Source of the DNA: Verrucomicrobiales bacterium
Lineage (GTDB): Bacteria > Verrucomicrobiota > Verrucomicrobiia > Verrucomicrobiales > DEV007
DNA: 64,000 bases
Direction of reading: 5' to 3'
NCBI GenBank assembly: GCA_029233965.1
Contig: JARGOP010000013.1
Coordinates: forward strand, 3,564 to 67,563
The notes under the pieces were generated by a model, which made no database searches, had not been told where the DNA came from, and saw only the letters and a program-made list of their open reading frames with translations. A program made the position numbers and the translations under genes. This document shows, piece by piece, positions 7,096 through 12,617 of the stretch; within the stretch, counting starts at the first letter, position 1; each line of letters begins with the position of its first letter.

Positions 7096-7554
7096 TTAAA
7101 GTTCGCGAAATCCCCGGTCGGCACCGGCGGTGAGGACGTTATCGTTCTGCTGAAGCACGCCGCCGGGAACGCGGTGCGACGGCTTGGGAAGCGAAAGCTC
7201 GATCACTTCGTCGGTAGCGCCCTGAAAATCCGGGAGCGTAGCGGAAGGCGGGGCTACCTCTGCGACCGCGTTTTCGCCGGTCGCTGAATCCCCGGGCTGA
7301 AGGGTGAGGAAGGCTCCGACAGTCACTGCGGCGGCACAGGCGGTGGCGGTTGCGGGAACGGCCCAACGGTTCGGACTCATTTCATCGAGCCAGAGTGTGA
7401 CCCGCTCGAACAGCAGGGAGCGGGCGGAACCTTTGAGGAGTTCAGAGCGCTGACGATCTTTAAAATCTTCGGCGAATTTCTGGAAGTATTCCTCGCCCGG
7501 CGATTCATAGCGCTTGAGGCGGAGGAGTTTATGAACGTCTTCGGAGTCTTTCAT
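7096..7554 (-). CDS. Single-pass membrane protein, putative anti-sigma factor
   Basis: 152 aa from the ATG at 7554, chosen over the upstream alternative because the extra 17 residues are not hydrophilic or family-like. Residues 1-60 are charged and cytoplasmic (KDSEDVHKLLRLKRYESPGE opening), one membrane segment lies at about 64-85, and the rest is a proline-rich periplasmic tail. This topology and the position 83 nt after an ECF sigma gene fit an anti-sigma factor, though no zinc-binding HxxxCxxC motif is present. It could instead be an unrelated co-regulated membrane protein. Confidence 0.6.
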   Translation of the reverse strand: MKDSEDVHKLLRLKRYESPGEEYFQKFAEDFKDRQRSELLKGSARSLLFERVTLWLDEMSPNRWAVPATATACAAAVTVGAFLTLQPGDSATGENAVAEVAPPSATLPDFQGATDEVIELSLPKPSHRVPGGVLQQNDNVLTAGADRGFREL

Positions 7555-7637
7555 CGAAAATGCCAAGGCGGATGGGAAGTTACGAGGATAAGGGATCAAT
7601 ATCAACGACAGATCTCGCCTTCCTCACGCCCCGGAAA

Positions 7638-8339
7638 TTACTTTCGGAAGTCGTCCAGATAGGTTTGTAACTGCCGATGGGCGTAGAAGAGCCGCGACCG
7701 GATCGTCCCTTCAGAAACCCCCAGGATCTTTGAGATCTGTGCGTGAGGCATTCCCTGAATGTCGAACATAGTAACCACTGCTCTATGGTCTTCAGACAGC
7801 TCCTGCATGGCCATGTTCAATCTTTCCTGCAATTCAGAAATATTTGCTTCCCGAACCGGATCAGACTTGCTTGTCGCCTCGATAAAATCGGGGTCGTTCT
7901 GGATCGCCATGTCGACATCGTCAAGGCTCATGCCGCGCCGGCGATTTCTCTTTTTGAGAAAATTCAGCGTCATGTTTGTCGCAATCGAATAGATCCAGGT
8001 GTAGAAAGTCGATTTGCCCTTGAAACGCCTGATGGCGCGATAGGCCTTCGCGAAGACATCCTGGAGGACGTCGTTCGTGTCCTCGTGGTTCGAGGTCATG
8101 TGGTAAACGAGGCCGTAGAGCTTTGGCGTGTACTTCTCCACCAACTCATCGAATGCCTTCGTGTCACCCGCGCGGGAGCGATCGATAAGGTCTTGATCGG
8201 GATCGATGCGGGGTGGTTTTCTCTCTTCGCTCATGGAGTGCTGCTGGTGAGCCTCTTCGGCGGGAACATCCTTGGCACGGGCTGAATCAATCGCAACGAC
8301 GTTCCCGGCCGGCTCAGGGTAGGTAAGTTTGTCAGGCAT
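7638..8339 (-). CDS. ECF RNA polymerase sigma factor (RpoE-like)
   Basis: 233 aa if started at 8339; a shorter start at 8234 (MSEERKPP) is also possible. Region 2 is evident (FDELVEKYTPKLYGLVYHM, then DVLQDVFAKAYRAI and TFYTWIYSIATNMTLN), as is region 4 with its helix-turn-helix (GMPHAQISKILGVSEGTIRSRL). An unusual 60-residue leader precedes region 2. The 8339 start overlaps the stop of the thioredoxin-like gene (ATGCCTGA), suggesting coupling. Followed by a putative anti-sigma factor and a PDZ protein, so probably a cell-envelope stress regulator. Confidence 0.9.
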   Translation of the reverse strand: MPDKLTYPEPAGNVVAIDSARAKDVPAEEAHQQHSMSEERKPPRIDPDQDLIDRSRAGDTKAFDELVEKYTPKLYGLVYHMTSNHEDTNDVLQDVFAKAYRAIRRFKGKSTFYTWIYSIATNMTLNFLKKRNRRRGMSLDDVDMAIQNDPDFIEATSKSDPVREANISELQERLNMAMQELSEDHRAVVTMFDIQGMPHAQISKILGVSEGTIRSRLFYAHRQLQTYLDDFRK

Positions 8340-8850
8340 CGGGCGTTTCAAATTTGATCCACTGTCCAAAAGCGGTTTCGGGCTCATAGGTAATTGCGTC
8401 CACCCCGCGATCGGTGACAACGTTTCCGTGAGGATCGAGAATGATCAGGGTCGGATACCCCTGCACCTGATACGTTTCTGCGAGGTTTTTTGACGCTTTG
8501 CGTCGCGCTCCCTCGACCGACGGCCATTCCATCCCGGAGTCCCTGATATATCGTCGTTTGTCGGTATTCGATTTGTCGAAATTGACGAGAACAACTTCGA
8601 AGCCGTTATCGAGATGATCATCGCGGAATTGCTTCAAGAGAGGAGTAAAAGCGCGGCAGGGAGCACACCACGATGCCGAGAAGTAGAGGCCGATGTATTT
8701 CCCGGCAAGGCTGCTGCTGTCCATCTTCTTCCCTTTGGCATCCTCAAGCTTTTCAGGCAGGAAGGCGGGACGCAGCGGCTCCTCTGCCGTCAAAGCGGAC
8801 GCAGAAAAGGCGATGATAAGACAGAGCATGAGCGGTCTTCGAAAAGTCAT
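8332..8850 (-). CDS. Exported thioredoxin-like (TlpA/nucleoredoxin) protein
   Basis: 172 aa from the ATG at 8850, which gives a clean signal peptide (MTFRRPLMLCLIIAFSASA); a start at 8889 adds 13 residues. The thioredoxin-fold active site WCAPC follows YIGLYFSAS, the cis-proline loop GYPTL is near the C-terminus, and LVNFDKSNTDKRRYI is typical of nucleoredoxin-like TlpA members. Predicted to be a periplasmic thiol-disulfide oxidoreductase. First gene of a four-gene minus-strand unit with an ECF sigma factor, suggesting a link to envelope or oxidative stress. Confidence 0.88.
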   Translation of the reverse strand: MTFRRPLMLCLIIAFSASALTAEEPLRPAFLPEKLEDAKGKKMDSSSLAGKYIGLYFSASWCAPCRAFTPLLKQFRDDHLDNGFEVVLVNFDKSNTDKRRYIRDSGMEWPSVEGARRKASKNLAETYQVQGYPTLIILDPHGNVVTDRGVDAITYEPETAFGQWIKFETPDA

Positions 8851-9011: not shown

Positions 9012-9974
9012 ATGCAGCGTAATTCCTCTCTTTCTTCCCATGGCGGCCGACGTGATTTCCTTCGTTCCAGCGGTCTTCTGGCCGGTTCCGGTGTCATGCT
9101 CGGCGCCGCTTCCGCGAAGTCGCAAGACGAATCCGGTGACAAGTCATTCAAGCTCTGCCTGAATATGTCGACGATCCGCGGGCAGGAGCTTGATGCGGCG
9201 GAGGAGATCGAAATCGCGGGGAAAGCTGGATACGATTCCATCGAGCCCTGGTTCCGCCGGATCAATGCCTATGTGGAGAATGGTGGATCGCTGAAGGATT
9301 TGAAGAAGCGGATTGATGATCACGGGCTCACCGTGGAAAGCGCAATCGGGTTCGCGCCGTGGGCGGTGAATGACGAAGCGCAGCGTGCGGCGGGATTGGA
9401 AGAGGCCAAGCGGGATATGGACACTCTTGCGCAGCTTGGCGGAGTTCGCATCGCGGCTCCCCCGGCCGGGATCCAGAAAGACGAGATTGTTGCTCTCGAT
9501 GATGTTGCGGATCGGTATCGCGCTCTGCTCGAACTCGGCGATGAAATGGGAATCGTCCCGCAGGTGGAAATGTGGGGAGGCCACCCCGTGATCGGGACGG
9601 TCGAGAAAGCCGTCTACGTGGCGATTCGTGCCGGGCACCCCAAAGCCTGTTTTCTCGGGGACGTCTATCACACCTACAAAGGGGGATCGTCGTTTGATTC
9701 CATCCTTCTCATGGGCCCTCAGGCGTTGCAGGCCTATCATATGAACGATTACCCTGCGGATCCTCCCCGTGAGACAATCAAGGATGCGGACCGCGTTTTC
9801 CCGGGGGATGGAATTGCGCCGATCACGGAAATCCTGAGAAATTTCAAAGCGGTCGGAGCCTACCCGGCACTCTCACTTGAATTATTCAACAAGAGCTACT
9901 GGGAAATGCCGGCTCTGGAGTGCGCCAAGATAGGGCTCGAGAAGATGAAGGCTGCCGTGGCGGCGGCTTCCTGA
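9012..9974 (+). CDS. Tat-exported sugar isomerase/epimerase, xylose isomerase-like TIM barrel
   Basis: 320 aa. The N-terminus has a twin-arginine signal (GRRDFLRSSGLLAGSG, about 12-27) followed by an AKS cleavage region. The mature part has xylose-isomerase-like TIM barrel features: AGYDSIEPW, VPQVEMWGG with the metal-type glutamate, CFLGDVYHTYKGG with Asp and His, and a final ALSLELFN. Such exported barrels are abundant in Verrucomicrobia and Planctomycetes and often act with sugar oxidoreductases. The substrate is unknown. It converges with the following minus-strand methyltransferase, leaving two bases. Confidence 0.85.
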   Translation: MQRNSSLSSHGGRRDFLRSSGLLAGSGVMLGAASAKSQDESGDKSFKLCLNMSTIRGQELDAAEEIEIAGKAGYDSIEPWFRRINAYVENGGSLKDLKKRIDDHGLTVESAIGFAPWAVNDEAQRAAGLEEAKRDMDTLAQLGGVRIAAPPAGIQKDEIVALDDVADRYRALLELGDEMGIVPQVEMWGGHPVIGTVEKAVYVAIRAGHPKACFLGDVYHTYKGGSSFDSILLMGPQALQAYHMNDYPADPPRETIKDADRVFPGDGIAPITEILRNFKAVGAYPALSLELFNKSYWEMPALECAKIGLEKMKAAVAAAS

Positions 9975-9976
9975 GG

Positions 9977-10555
9977 TTATCGCTCGCAGCGATAGACAAA
10001 GGCGGGGGGAAGATTTTTCCACGCAGTCGGGCTCTGCTCGACGGTGGAAAAGTGCTGTCGCAGGTATTTCCGGAAACGCTGCCCTGCCGGGAGCATGAGC
10101 CCCTGCCAGTAGGCAAATGTCGCGAATTGCCCGCCTTCGGGAAGCACCTCGAACATGGCGTCGAGAAACTCATCCTGCACTTCAGAGGAAAACGAAGCCC
10201 ACGGAAGACCGCAGACGATCGCGTCAACTTTCTCAATTCCGGCCTCCCTGCAAATAGTGGCGACCCGGCTGACGCAGCTCTCGTGGAGATCGACTTCGGG
10301 ACAGCGGCTCCGCGTGATTTCAGCGAGGACGGGATCTCTTTCGATCGCGAAAAATCTACCGCCTGGTTTCAGGTAGCGTTGCACCGCCTCCGTAAAAACT
10401 CCCGTTCCGGCCCCGAATTCCACGACGCAGTCGATCGAGTCCCAGTCCATCCATTCGAGCATCAGTTTCGCCAATTCGGGGGAACTGGGAGCGACGGCTC
10501 CGACCTTTCCTGAATTCCGGAGGAAAGCGCGAAAAAAGTGACGGTGGTGGGACAT
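9977..10555 (-). CDS. SAM-dependent methyltransferase (phospholipid or rRNA-type)
   Basis: 192 aa. The start at 10555 overlaps the upstream gene's stop by one base (TGATG). SAM-binding motif I is CVVEFGAGTGVFTEAV; motif II ends FFAIERD, and the catalytic-loop region reads DAIVCGLPWASF, close to the N-P-P-[FY]-type loop in the phospholipid N-methyltransferase/KsgA-like group. The opening RHFFRAFLRNSGKVGAVAPSS resembles phosphatidylethanolamine N-methyltransferases of the Rhodobacter PmtA type. The substrate is not determined by sequence alone. Translational coupling with the kinase-like gene upstream suggests a shared function. Confidence 0.82.
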   Translation of the reverse strand: MSHHRHFFRAFLRNSGKVGAVAPSSPELAKLMLEWMDWDSIDCVVEFGAGTGVFTEAVQRYLKPGGRFFAIERDPVLAEITRSRCPEVDLHESCVSRVATICREAGIEKVDAIVCGLPWASFSSEVQDEFLDAMFEVLPEGGQFATFAYWQGLMLPAGQRFRKYLRQHFSTVEQSPTAWKNLPPAFVYRCER

Positions 10556-11583
10556 CAGGATTCGGTCTTGGAAACGGAAACGTCGAGGTTCATCTGGACC
10601 AGTTCTCCCATCGTCTCGCAAGCCGAGAAAGCAGTGGTTTCATGGTATTCATTGAGTCCATCCCGCAGGGAAAGGATGTTTTCCTCCGGAGCGATATCAT
10701 CCGGACGCATCGTCTTCCAGAAGTCCCTGAGTCGGTTGTGAGCGAGGCGAATGCGGCGATCCATGAGGGTGCGCTCTTCGTCCTGGTACTGGCGCATCGT
10801 CTTGTAGTTGATGCGATCAGTGCAGAGGCCTACCGCCTGAGCATTTTCCTCAAAGAACTGGGGAAGATACATTTTGGTAAAGCCCATGTAACTCTGCTGA
10901 TCGAAGTCGATCGCGCGAACCCGATACTGGGCGTCTTCGAAGTCCGGGGTGATGTCGACAACGTAGTTGTAACTGCGCATGTCGCCTAACAATCGCATAA
11001 AGCTCCGCTCGCTGAACTTTACGAATTCCTTGGCGACGCGAACGAGATTCGTGTCTTCGCGAGCGAAGTAATCGCGGATGAAAATGTCACCGGGCACGCC
11101 GGCGATGTGCTCTTCGATGAGGGTGTCACCGTTGACAAGATAGTTGATGCGGTTGGGGGAAAGGATGTGCTCCAGCTCGAGTCCGTAGATCCGGGAAGCG
11201 TCGGCGATCTTCACGTAGAAGTGATCGTAGTTGTCGTTGAATTGATTGACGATGCGAACCCGGAATGGCCTGGAATTTCCGAACTCACAGAAATCAACAC
11301 GCTCCATGATGAGGTGATCACTGACCTTCACATCGTTGGTCTTAATGAGAGAATAAATCCGGATCAGCTTTGCGCTGAGCTCTTCCCGAATCGATGGCTC
11401 GTAGTGAACCGTCTTCCAGAGAGTGTCGTTTCCTTCGCGATCGAAGAGCGGATACAGCGCCGAGTAGCGATGCAGATCGTCGTAGACGACCGGGATATCA
11501 AGCGAGCGCTGGTAGTTGCCGAGATACTCCCCGAGGAGATTACTCACAGGGTAGAATTTCTTTTTCTTTAGTATAACGCTCAC
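10555..11583 (-). CDS. Uncharacterised protein with kinase-like motif layout
   Basis: 342 aa, soluble. I do not recognise the family. The order of short motifs resembles protein-kinase-like/aminoglycoside-phosphotransferase folds: FYVKIADAS with Lys125, a helix carrying Glu137, a hinge-like stretch TLIEEHIAGVPGDIF (154-168), LGDMRSYNYVVD with Asp201 and Asn206 spaced like the HxDxxxxN loop, and AIDFD (Asp226, Asp228) in place of DFG. It is coupled to a methyltransferase gene. The kinase assignment is inference from motif spacing only. Confidence 0.6.
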   Translation of the reverse strand: MSVILKKKKFYPVSNLLGEYLGNYQRSLDIPVVYDDLHRYSALYPLFDREGNDTLWKTVHYEPSIREELSAKLIRIYSLIKTNDVKVSDHLIMERVDFCEFGNSRPFRVRIVNQFNDNYDHFYVKIADASRIYGLELEHILSPNRINYLVNGDTLIEEHIAGVPGDIFIRDYFAREDTNLVRVAKEFVKFSERSFMRLLGDMRSYNYVVDITPDFEDAQYRVRAIDFDQQSYMGFTKMYLPQFFEENAQAVGLCTDRINYKTMRQYQDEERTLMDRRIRLAHNRLRDFWKTMRPDDIAPEENILSLRDGLNEYHETTAFSACETMGELVQMNLDVSVSKTES

Positions 11584-11642: not shown

Positions 11643-12617
11643 CTACATTCCGAGACCGTAACGCAGGAGTGCCTCCGACTCCTTCCAGACGGTGGGGGAG
11701 GTGCTCCCGAGAATGACGGCGACGACATCGCGACCATTGGCGCTGCCGGATGAGACGAGGCAGCGACCGGCGGCATTGGTGAACCCGGTTTTTGCCCCGG
11801 TGCAGTAGGGAAAGTTTCGCAGGACCAGATTCGTATTTGAAATCGTCGTGGTCCTGCCGTCGGAAAACCGGAAGACCATTCCCTTTGTGCGAACGGCATC
11901 ACGGACCGTCGGATTGCGAAGAGCGGCCTTGCCGAGCTTGGCGAGGTCCCGGGCTGTCGAATACTGCCCCGCCGGGGTGGGGAGACCGCTCGCATTCGTA
12001 AAGTAGGAATCATACATTCCCAGCGAGCGCGCCCGCTGGTTCATGTTTGCGGCAAATTGTGAGACGCTCCCGGAGTGGTCACGGGCGAGGGCCCGGGCGA
12101 TGTCGTTACTGCTTCGCACAAGAACCGCCCGGAGAAGTTCCCCGCGGGTGTAGGTTTCTCCGGTTTTGATCCCCATTTTTGTGGGTTCCGCCCAGGTATC
12201 GGGATCCTGAATCGTGACGATTTCATTGAGCCCGCCCCGCTCTGCGATCATGATTCCGAGAAGGAGCTTCTGGGTGCTCGCGACCGGCATCCGGCTGTCG
12301 GCATTTTTTTCGAAAAGAACCCGCCCGGAGCCATCCACGAGAATGGCGGCCCGTGCCGTGATATTCGGAGGTGGGCCTTCAGGAGTGGTCGTACGCCCCC
12401 CGAAACTGACGGCAAGGGGGGTGGGGTAGTTGTTCGTCTGGCGCCCCTCGTCAGATCTCTGGCCGGAGCCATCAGGTGATGGAACTTGCGCCCCGATCGA
12501 CATGGGCTCCTCCGTTGTTGACTGACAGCCCGTCAGACTCAGGAAAAGAGCAGCTCCCAGAGCAAATACGGTCAATGCTTTGCCTCGTTTTGAGCTGTAG
12601 TTGGTTTTGCCTCTCAT
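11643..12617 (-). CDS. D-alanyl-D-alanine carboxypeptidase (S11, PBP5-like) lipoprotein
   Basis: 324 aa. A lipobox LTGC (Cys31) follows a hydrophobic segment, so this is probably a lipoprotein; residues 32-85 are a low-complexity linker. All three penicillin-binding motifs of family S11 are present: SxxK as S114-T-Q-K117, S-x-N as S169-S-N171 and KTG at 276-278. The enzyme trims the terminal D-Ala from peptidoglycan stem peptides in the periplasm. It lacks a clear C-terminal amphipathic anchor domain of E. coli PBP5, consistent with the lipid anchor serving instead. Confidence 0.93.
   Translation of the reverse strand: MRGKTNYSSKRGKALTVFALGAALFLSLTGCQSTTEEPMSIGAQVPSPDGSGQRSDEGRQTNNYPTPLAVSFGGRTTTPEGPPPNITARAAILVDGSGRVLFEKNADSRMPVASTQKLLLGIMIAERGGLNEIVTIQDPDTWAEPTKMGIKTGETYTRGELLRAVLVRSSNDIARALARDHSGSVSQFAANMNQRARSLGMYDSYFTNASGLPTPAGQYSTARDLAKLGKAALRNPTVRDAVRTKGMVFRFSDGRTTTISNTNLVLRNFPYCTGAKTGFTNAAGRCLVSSGSANGRDVVAVILGSTSPTVWKESEALLRYGLGM

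Follow-up and report, generated by a model that had tools for sequence, protein, structure and literature searches.

Kinases of the PI3K type are usually thought of as eukaryotic. Their signature is a lysine that ends a strand, followed by an acidic residue and then by R-Q-[DE]. In class III PI3K structures these letters read K-H-G-D-D-L-R-Q-D, followed by G-V-G-D-R-H-L-D-N and I-D-F-G, and a proline stands 18 positions ahead of the lysine (P-x17-K). The P-loop proline of mTOR likewise stands 18 positions before K-G-H-E-D-L-R-Q-D. APH-like kinases and HipA also have a kinase-like fold, in which a D-x4-N loop is followed by an acidic metal motif.

Bacterial exceptions of the PI3K type include the LanM domain (PMC4550811) and the Legionella effectors (PMC9758233). 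The LanM enzyme CylM has a PI3K-like domain that carries out dehydration by phosphorylation and subsequent elimination, and this domain adopts the architecture of PI3K although its sequence shows no detectable likeness (PMC4550811). Its catalysis involves an invariant lysine and the Asp and His of a DxH motif, with a conserved Asn and Asp nearby (PMC4550811). The phosphatidylinositol-kinase-like families of Legionella are divergent bacterial families that cluster near PI3K and come up among the effector kinases of a pathogen (PMC9758233).

We analysed a stretch of 64,000 nucleotides (the window) from a Verrucomicrobiales genome, a 4.83-Mb assembly of 151 contigs that is 96% complete. The minus strand at 10555..11583 encodes a putative PI3K-like kinase of 342 amino acids, with a GTG start and a TGA stop; position and frame are as given in the initial annotation. 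From its predicted structure and conserved residues we think it reasonably likely (probability about 0.7) that this ORF encodes a catalytically competent PI3K-like kinase, and its relatives probably form a new bacterial family of active PI3K-like kinases. No Pfam or NCBIfam kinase model matches this family. It resembles the LanM dehydration domain in being bacterial and of PI3K-like architecture. LanM enzymes are larger and contain a cyclase domain and a DxH motif, whereas the family protein has neither, and no Pfam link between the two was found. The Legionella families are set apart by their descriptions: those come up as effectors of a pathogen, whereas the family described here is found in Verrucomicrobiota and Bacteroidota, mostly as a single copy.

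Distribution and constraint of the family

The protein had been called an orphan, a description that did not survive comparison with other genomes. The gene is present in 143 of the 189 genomes of the order, its own included (115/152 among those of good quality), and a scan of public genomes, queried with peptides near the window protein and thus reaching close relatives only, returned 54 loci. A sparser draw across the phylum gave 59 carriers among 288 genomes. The family is widespread, occurring in many Verrucomicrobia and in some Bacteroidetes. Genus g16, whose genomes measure 2.2-3.5 Mb, has no copy among the matches listed in either the order or the phylum draw. Each of 139 of the 143 carriers within the order has one match, and the gene is single-copy in the window's own genome. 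It is split in two pieces over two contigs in G063, G151 and G156, and G087 holds an additional weak fragment containing stops.

The public loci are labelled as Verrucomicrobia (37), Bacteroidota (15), Lentisphaerales (one) and Acidobacteria (one), and the closest relatives that carry a name are MAGs of Verrucomicrobiales. The Bacteroidota loci belong to Chitinophagaceae, Saprospiraceae and unplaced lineages, and their proteins are 46-53% identical to the window protein. In a midpoint-rooted tree of 39 rows the 15 Bacteroidota sequences separate from the remaining 24 with support of 99/95, and the Acidobacteria-labelled locus groups among Verrucomicrobia.

The ORF is a genuine gene under constraint. 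Values of dN and dS were 0.028 and 1.32 against L031, 0.044 and 1.75 against L032, and 0.164 and 2.01 against L033, with dS near saturation in these comparisons and not computable for L035 and L046. These values indicate strong purifying selection.

An origin from phages or plasmids was rejected: the viral contigs and plasmids searched held no relative of the protein, and in PHROGs the window protein reached E 0.11 at best and a Bacteroidota protein E 0.007. The latter match, to phrog_36767, is weak and covers residues 102-140 of the protein of Paraflavitalea pollutisoli H1-2-19X (L074, 5986-7047), from P-loop to helix; phrog_36767 is a phage family without an assigned function, and the match may be due to chance or to a short phage relative. 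A role in defence was likewise set aside, the best PADLOC E-value being only 0.041. In the literature, with preprints and most subscription papers outside the scope of the search, no paper was recognised as being about this family.

A wider reading, which we regard as possible but speculative, is that the family is a branch of the PI3K/PIKK kinase superfamily native to bacteria and passed on vertically, frequent in parts of Verrucomicrobiota and also found in Bacteroidota and in one genome labelled Lentisphaerota. Its members would then be minimal, free-standing kinases whose substrate is a protein or a non-inositol lipid, and they would inform the origin of the eukaryotic lipid and PIKK kinases. 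A conserved family with the predicted fold would in any case give a bacterial counterpart for comparison with Vps34 and the PIKKs, and would point to an uncharacterised phosphorylation step kept under strong constraint in many Verrucomicrobia and some Bacteroidetes.

Motif residues and sequence searches

The initial annotation drew attention to a kinase-like order of motifs. K125, D201, N206, D226, F227 and D228 sit where it placed them; the residue that it read as Glu137 is Leu137, flanked by the invariant acids E136 and E138. Lys125, E136, E138, D201-x4-N206 and D226-F-D228 are unchanged in all 88 distinct open frames of the family, a set that includes close relatives. With gaps ignored, 60 positions are invariant over these frames, the motif residues among them. 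In the alignment of 39 rows K125, D128, R131, E136, E138, E157, G200, D201, M202, R203, N206, D226, F227 and D228 are invariant, and every one of them, E157, M202 and R203 included, is also invariant over the 88 ORFs.

Four stretches of the minus strand carry the motifs. A P-loop-like stretch, N103-S-R-P106-F-R108-V-R110 (11254..11277), has N103, P106, R108 and R110 invariant. In K125-x2-D128-x2-R131 (11191..11211) the predicted ATP-binding lysine ends a strand and the next helix begins. The putative catalytic loop is G200-D201-M-R203-S-Y-N206 (10966..10986), which has low pLDDT in the model, and the DFG-like motif is D226-F227-D228 (10900..10908). Beyond it Q229-Q230-x-Y232 and Y239-L-P-Q are conserved.

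The spacing noted at the outset can be written as K-x60-130-D-x4-N-x10-40-DF[DG]. All 88 family ORFs contain it, as do 7 of the 1,525 ORFs outside the family and, after reversal, again 7 of these, the family having been set apart by a BLAST split and the background including shadow ORFs. As the pattern also occurs in these others, it is weak by itself, and the conservation of its residues is what counts. A combined PI3K-like pattern matched 78 of the 88 family ORFs, none of the 1,525 others and none of the reversed sequences; it was composed after the family had been seen and therefore shows rarity, not homology. The ten family ORFs that miss it keep the tabulated motif residues, apart from changes at positions 104, 117, 121 and 230 in some rows of the set.

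Compared with PI3K, the family reads K125-x2-D128-x2-R131, then L-G-D201-M-R203-x2-N206, then D226-F-D228. Common to the family and to PI3K, PI4K and PIKK are K-x2-[DE]-x2-R, G-D-x-[HR]-x2-N and DF[GD], and the catalytic D and N of PI3K are kept. R-Q-[DE] is replaced by R131-I-Y, with K125, D128 and R131 retained. DRH becomes DMR, which places R203 at the histidine, and DFG becomes DFD, which places D228 at the glycine, in 88/88 sequences. P106 lies 19 positions ahead of the lysine (P-x18-K) instead of 18, and the lysine is 76 residues from the catalytic D, as against 107 in class III PI3K. Unlike the PI3K/PI4K/PIKK catalytic domains (PF00454), the family protein is free-standing at 342 amino acids.

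Homology to PI3K at the level of sequence received no support from phmmer, hmmsearch, hmmscan or hhalign. At E <= 10 the window protein matches nothing in Pfam or NCBIfam. The 39 aligned members have no match to a kinase model in either collection, their scattered weak matches falling in no kinase family, and neither they nor the window protein reach the PF00454 cut-off. PF00454 found no match in the window's genome at E <= 0.1, and a family profile searched against PDB sequences returned no PI3K at E <= 10. A phmmer search of the PDB with the window protein returned DdmE alone, at E 0.54 or worse. Profile comparison with hhalign gave no signal for Vps34, HipA or APH; the profiles were shallow (two Vps34 rows, ten HipA rows and four single APH-type rows), and among the controls, one reversed and three column-shuffled Vps34 alignments, the reversed one and two of the three shuffled ones outscored the real Vps34.

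The family shares D-x4-N and the acidic metal motif with APH-like kinases and HipA. There is no profile match to APH (PF01636), and L199-G-D stands where HGD-x4-N is expected; HGD is present in three of the four APH-type loci of the same genome and absent from the family. HipA (PF07804) gave no profile match either. In the window's genus (for example L131-L140) HipA_C itself is matched in 16 of 24 genomes at E <= 0.001 and above its cut-off in 11 of the 24, with up to five genes in one genome.

Predicted structure and fold comparison

The AlphaFold2 model of the window protein has a pLDDT of 83.3 and a pTM of 0.85, and pLDDT falls below 50 at residues 1-4, 204-206 and 229-235. Ahead of the P-loop-like stretch lie two strands and a long helix. 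The model has strands at 91-99, 107-113 and 118-126, the last of which contains K125, then a helix at 129-141, strands at 148-151 and 154-158 and helices at 165-172 and 180-201. After the catalytic loop, strands at 209-214 and 219-225 run into the DFD motif. The model thus follows the order of a kinase-like fold: the strand that ends at K125 leads to a helix bearing E136 and E138, a pair of strands, the hinge region and two more helices, and then come the loop of D201 and N206 and the strand into D226-F-D228. A second model was made for a Bacteroidota protein (Paraflavitalea), placed first in the alignment; it has a pLDDT of 77.9 and a pTM of 0.80, with residues 204-238 below 50. The catalytic region is of low confidence in both models, and the two are not independent because nearly the same alignment underlies them.

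In a Foldseek search of the PDB with the window protein, Drosophila Vps34 occupied rows 1-7 with a best E-value of 1.3e-5, followed by PI3K-gamma and FGFR kinases, and 17 matches reached E <= 0.001. For the Vps34 rows the TM-score over the query is low at 0.35-0.39, with an rmsd of about 10. On re-alignment with VIA-align, PI3K, PI4K or PIKK proteins fill the best 50 of 993 chains. The best is Vps34 (7rsv_A), with Z 11.6 and rmsd 4.3 over 263 residues aligned between 15 and 342, and Z is 10.5 for PI4K-III-beta, 10.4 for p110-gamma, 9.8 for SMG1 and 9.5 for ATM. Best Z-scores without a clear match are typically 7-8, and 14 for mostly helical models, so that 11.6 stands only moderately above this range. 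With the second model Foldseek gave nothing at E <= 0.001 and ranked a p38/MK2 entry first. VIA-align again listed PI3K/PI4K/PIKK alone among its 50 matches, the best at Z 8.9, close to the range without a clear match.

The suggestion of a kinase-like fold is supported by the predicted two-lobe order and by the Foldseek and VIA-align matches listed for the window protein, all of which are kinase-fold proteins. APH and HipA, proposed at the outset for comparison, do not lead the ranking: neither appears among the Foldseek and VIA-align matches listed for either model, and the PI3K/PI4K/PIKK catalytic domains head the VIA-align matches listed. Among the structures compared, these domains are the nearest to the predicted fold. 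Since the TM-scores are low, sequence profiles show no link and three signature residues differ, we label the family PI3K-like and do not assign it to PF00454.

The protein may instead belong to another kinase-like branch (APH-like small-molecule, HipA-like or Fam20/CotH-like), with the PI3K ranking due to shared C-lobe helices or to the make-up of the Foldseek list; we consider this unlikely. Sequence comparison cannot tell the branches apart, and the Foldseek matches of the second model, which start at E 1.6e-3, are a mixture that includes MK2, FGFR4, PAN3 and p110alpha. Against it, re-alignment of both models leaves PI3K/PI4K/PIKK alone among the 50 matches listed, the letters K-x2-D-x2-R and G-D-x-R-x2-N fit PI3K, and the HGD of the APH-type loci is missing from the family.

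Reaction, candidate acceptors and genomic context

On the preferred reading, the gene product is an intact ATP-dependent phosphotransferase that consists of a single domain and folds as a PI3K-type variant of the protein-kinase-like fold. If PI3K and CylM are taken as guides, ATP would sit between the lobes and K125 would bind its phosphates, partnered by E136, E138 or D128. N206 and D226 (or D228) would hold the metal, D201 would orient the acceptor hydroxyl, and R203, replacing the catalytic-loop histidine of PI3K, would stabilise the transferred phosphate. Q229-Q230-x-Y232 and Y239-L-P-Q would build a substrate-facing loop; by eye it has no obvious basic cluster, and specificity is not readable from it.

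The scaffold may serve a different reaction, such as AMP transfer, phosphorylation and elimination as in LanM, or ATP sensing. The PI3K-like domain of CylM phosphorylates and then eliminates (PMC4550811, in part), and the family has DFD for DFG and DxR for DxH. The predicted ATP and metal residues are nevertheless kept in 88/88 sequences, and the protein is a single 342-residue domain with no fused LanC cyclase and no Pfam match, to a cyclase domain or otherwise. We hold a changed reaction to be rather improbable.

For the acceptor of the phosphotransferase we tentatively put first a polar lipid or lipid-linked head group of a non-inositol kind. Serine or threonine of a protein is a possible second, and a soluble metabolite a more doubtful third. 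The predicted fold is closest to Vps34, which is compatible with a phosphatidylinositol kinase like its eukaryotic look-alikes. Inositol-1-phosphate synthase (PF01658) is matched in 0/189 genomes of the order at E <= 0.001, with the control positive in 6 of 14, which makes phosphatidylinositol an unlikely substrate, with inositol uptake still possible. On this ground the inositol-lipid route was rejected and a phosphatidylinositol kinase seems very improbable.

The kinase-like gene had been described as translationally coupled to a SAM methyltransferase, as part of a possible small-molecule kinase and methyltransferase pair. The overlap is real: the kinase stop occupies 10557-10555 and the ATG of the methyltransferase (9977..10555, minus strand, 192 amino acids) starts at 10555, giving TGATG with one shared base. 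The methyltransferase assignment is also confirmed. It is closest to the models for ornithine-lipid and phospholipid N-methyltransferases and falls below their cut-offs, with OlsG best (E 8e-31, 107 bits against a cut-off of 350), then PmtA (E 6e-15, 55 bits against 250), both scored on the longer ORF 9977-10621.

A dedicated partnership of the two enzymes, for example in a two-step modification of a head group, would agree with the overlap in the window, with the likeness to OlsG and PmtA and with the position of the methyltransferase directly downstream of the kinase in 23 of the 25 genus members that carry the kinase (coordinates compared by eye). The genus members G023 and G158 have no match to the methyltransferase. 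Outside the genus adjacency is found in 0 of 118 kinase-bearing genomes, of which 67 match the methyltransferase at some other place and 51 have no match at E <= 0.001. Because adjacency was seen in one genus only, the pairing does not describe the family; we read the methyltransferase as a neighbour peculiar to this lineage, one that the kinase does not require, and a dedicated partnership is improbable.

The gap between the two genes varies in close relatives from an overlap to tens of bases, and in G082, one of the 118 genomes outside the genus, the methyltransferase lies about 2.5 kb off on the opposite strand. In G081 (C5:63731-64308), one of the 23 with adjacency, the methyltransferase is in two pieces, broken by internal stops or frame changes, which may reflect decay or an assembly error, and the kinase frame is open.

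A conserved operon partner was sought and rejected, as the neighbours differ between clades (54 loci by clustering; 83 by nearest neighbour, from mechanical ORF picks). The D-Ala-D-Ala carboxypeptidase (Peptidase_S11) upstream in the window (11643..12617, minus strand) is not a conserved partner. Of the 28 ORFs that lie upstream on the same strand at a distance of up to 150 bases, 20 were scanned with Pfam at E <= 1e-8. The families found were S11 peptidase, three sulfatases, MetRS, PurH, CdsA-type cytidylyltransferase, response regulator, GDSL lipase, amidase, binding protein, methyltransferase, acyltransferase, YecM, DUF2130, transglutaminase-like, Lgt and OGG_N; two scanned ORFs had no match. 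Downstream there are 41 same-strand ORFs, some of which were read by eye. With no conserved partner, genomic context therefore says little about the substrate of the kinase.

A few of the upstream neighbours are envelope or lipid genes, which is anecdotal. Those upstream on the same strand include a CdsA-type cytidylyltransferase, Lgt and an acyltransferase, in different clades (L043:4891-5874, L090:2588-3532 and L076:4200-5927). Elsewhere in the window, the minus strand at 7096-8420 carries an ORF resembling an ECF-type sigma factor (7638-8420) and then an ORF at 7096-7605 with one possible membrane segment, by eye a sigma/anti-sigma-like arrangement. On the plus strand, convergent with the methyltransferase, the ORF at 9012-9974 encodes a sugar-isomerase-like TIM barrel (AP_endonuc_2, E 1.1e-25), the N-terminus of which resembles a twin-arginine signal by eye.
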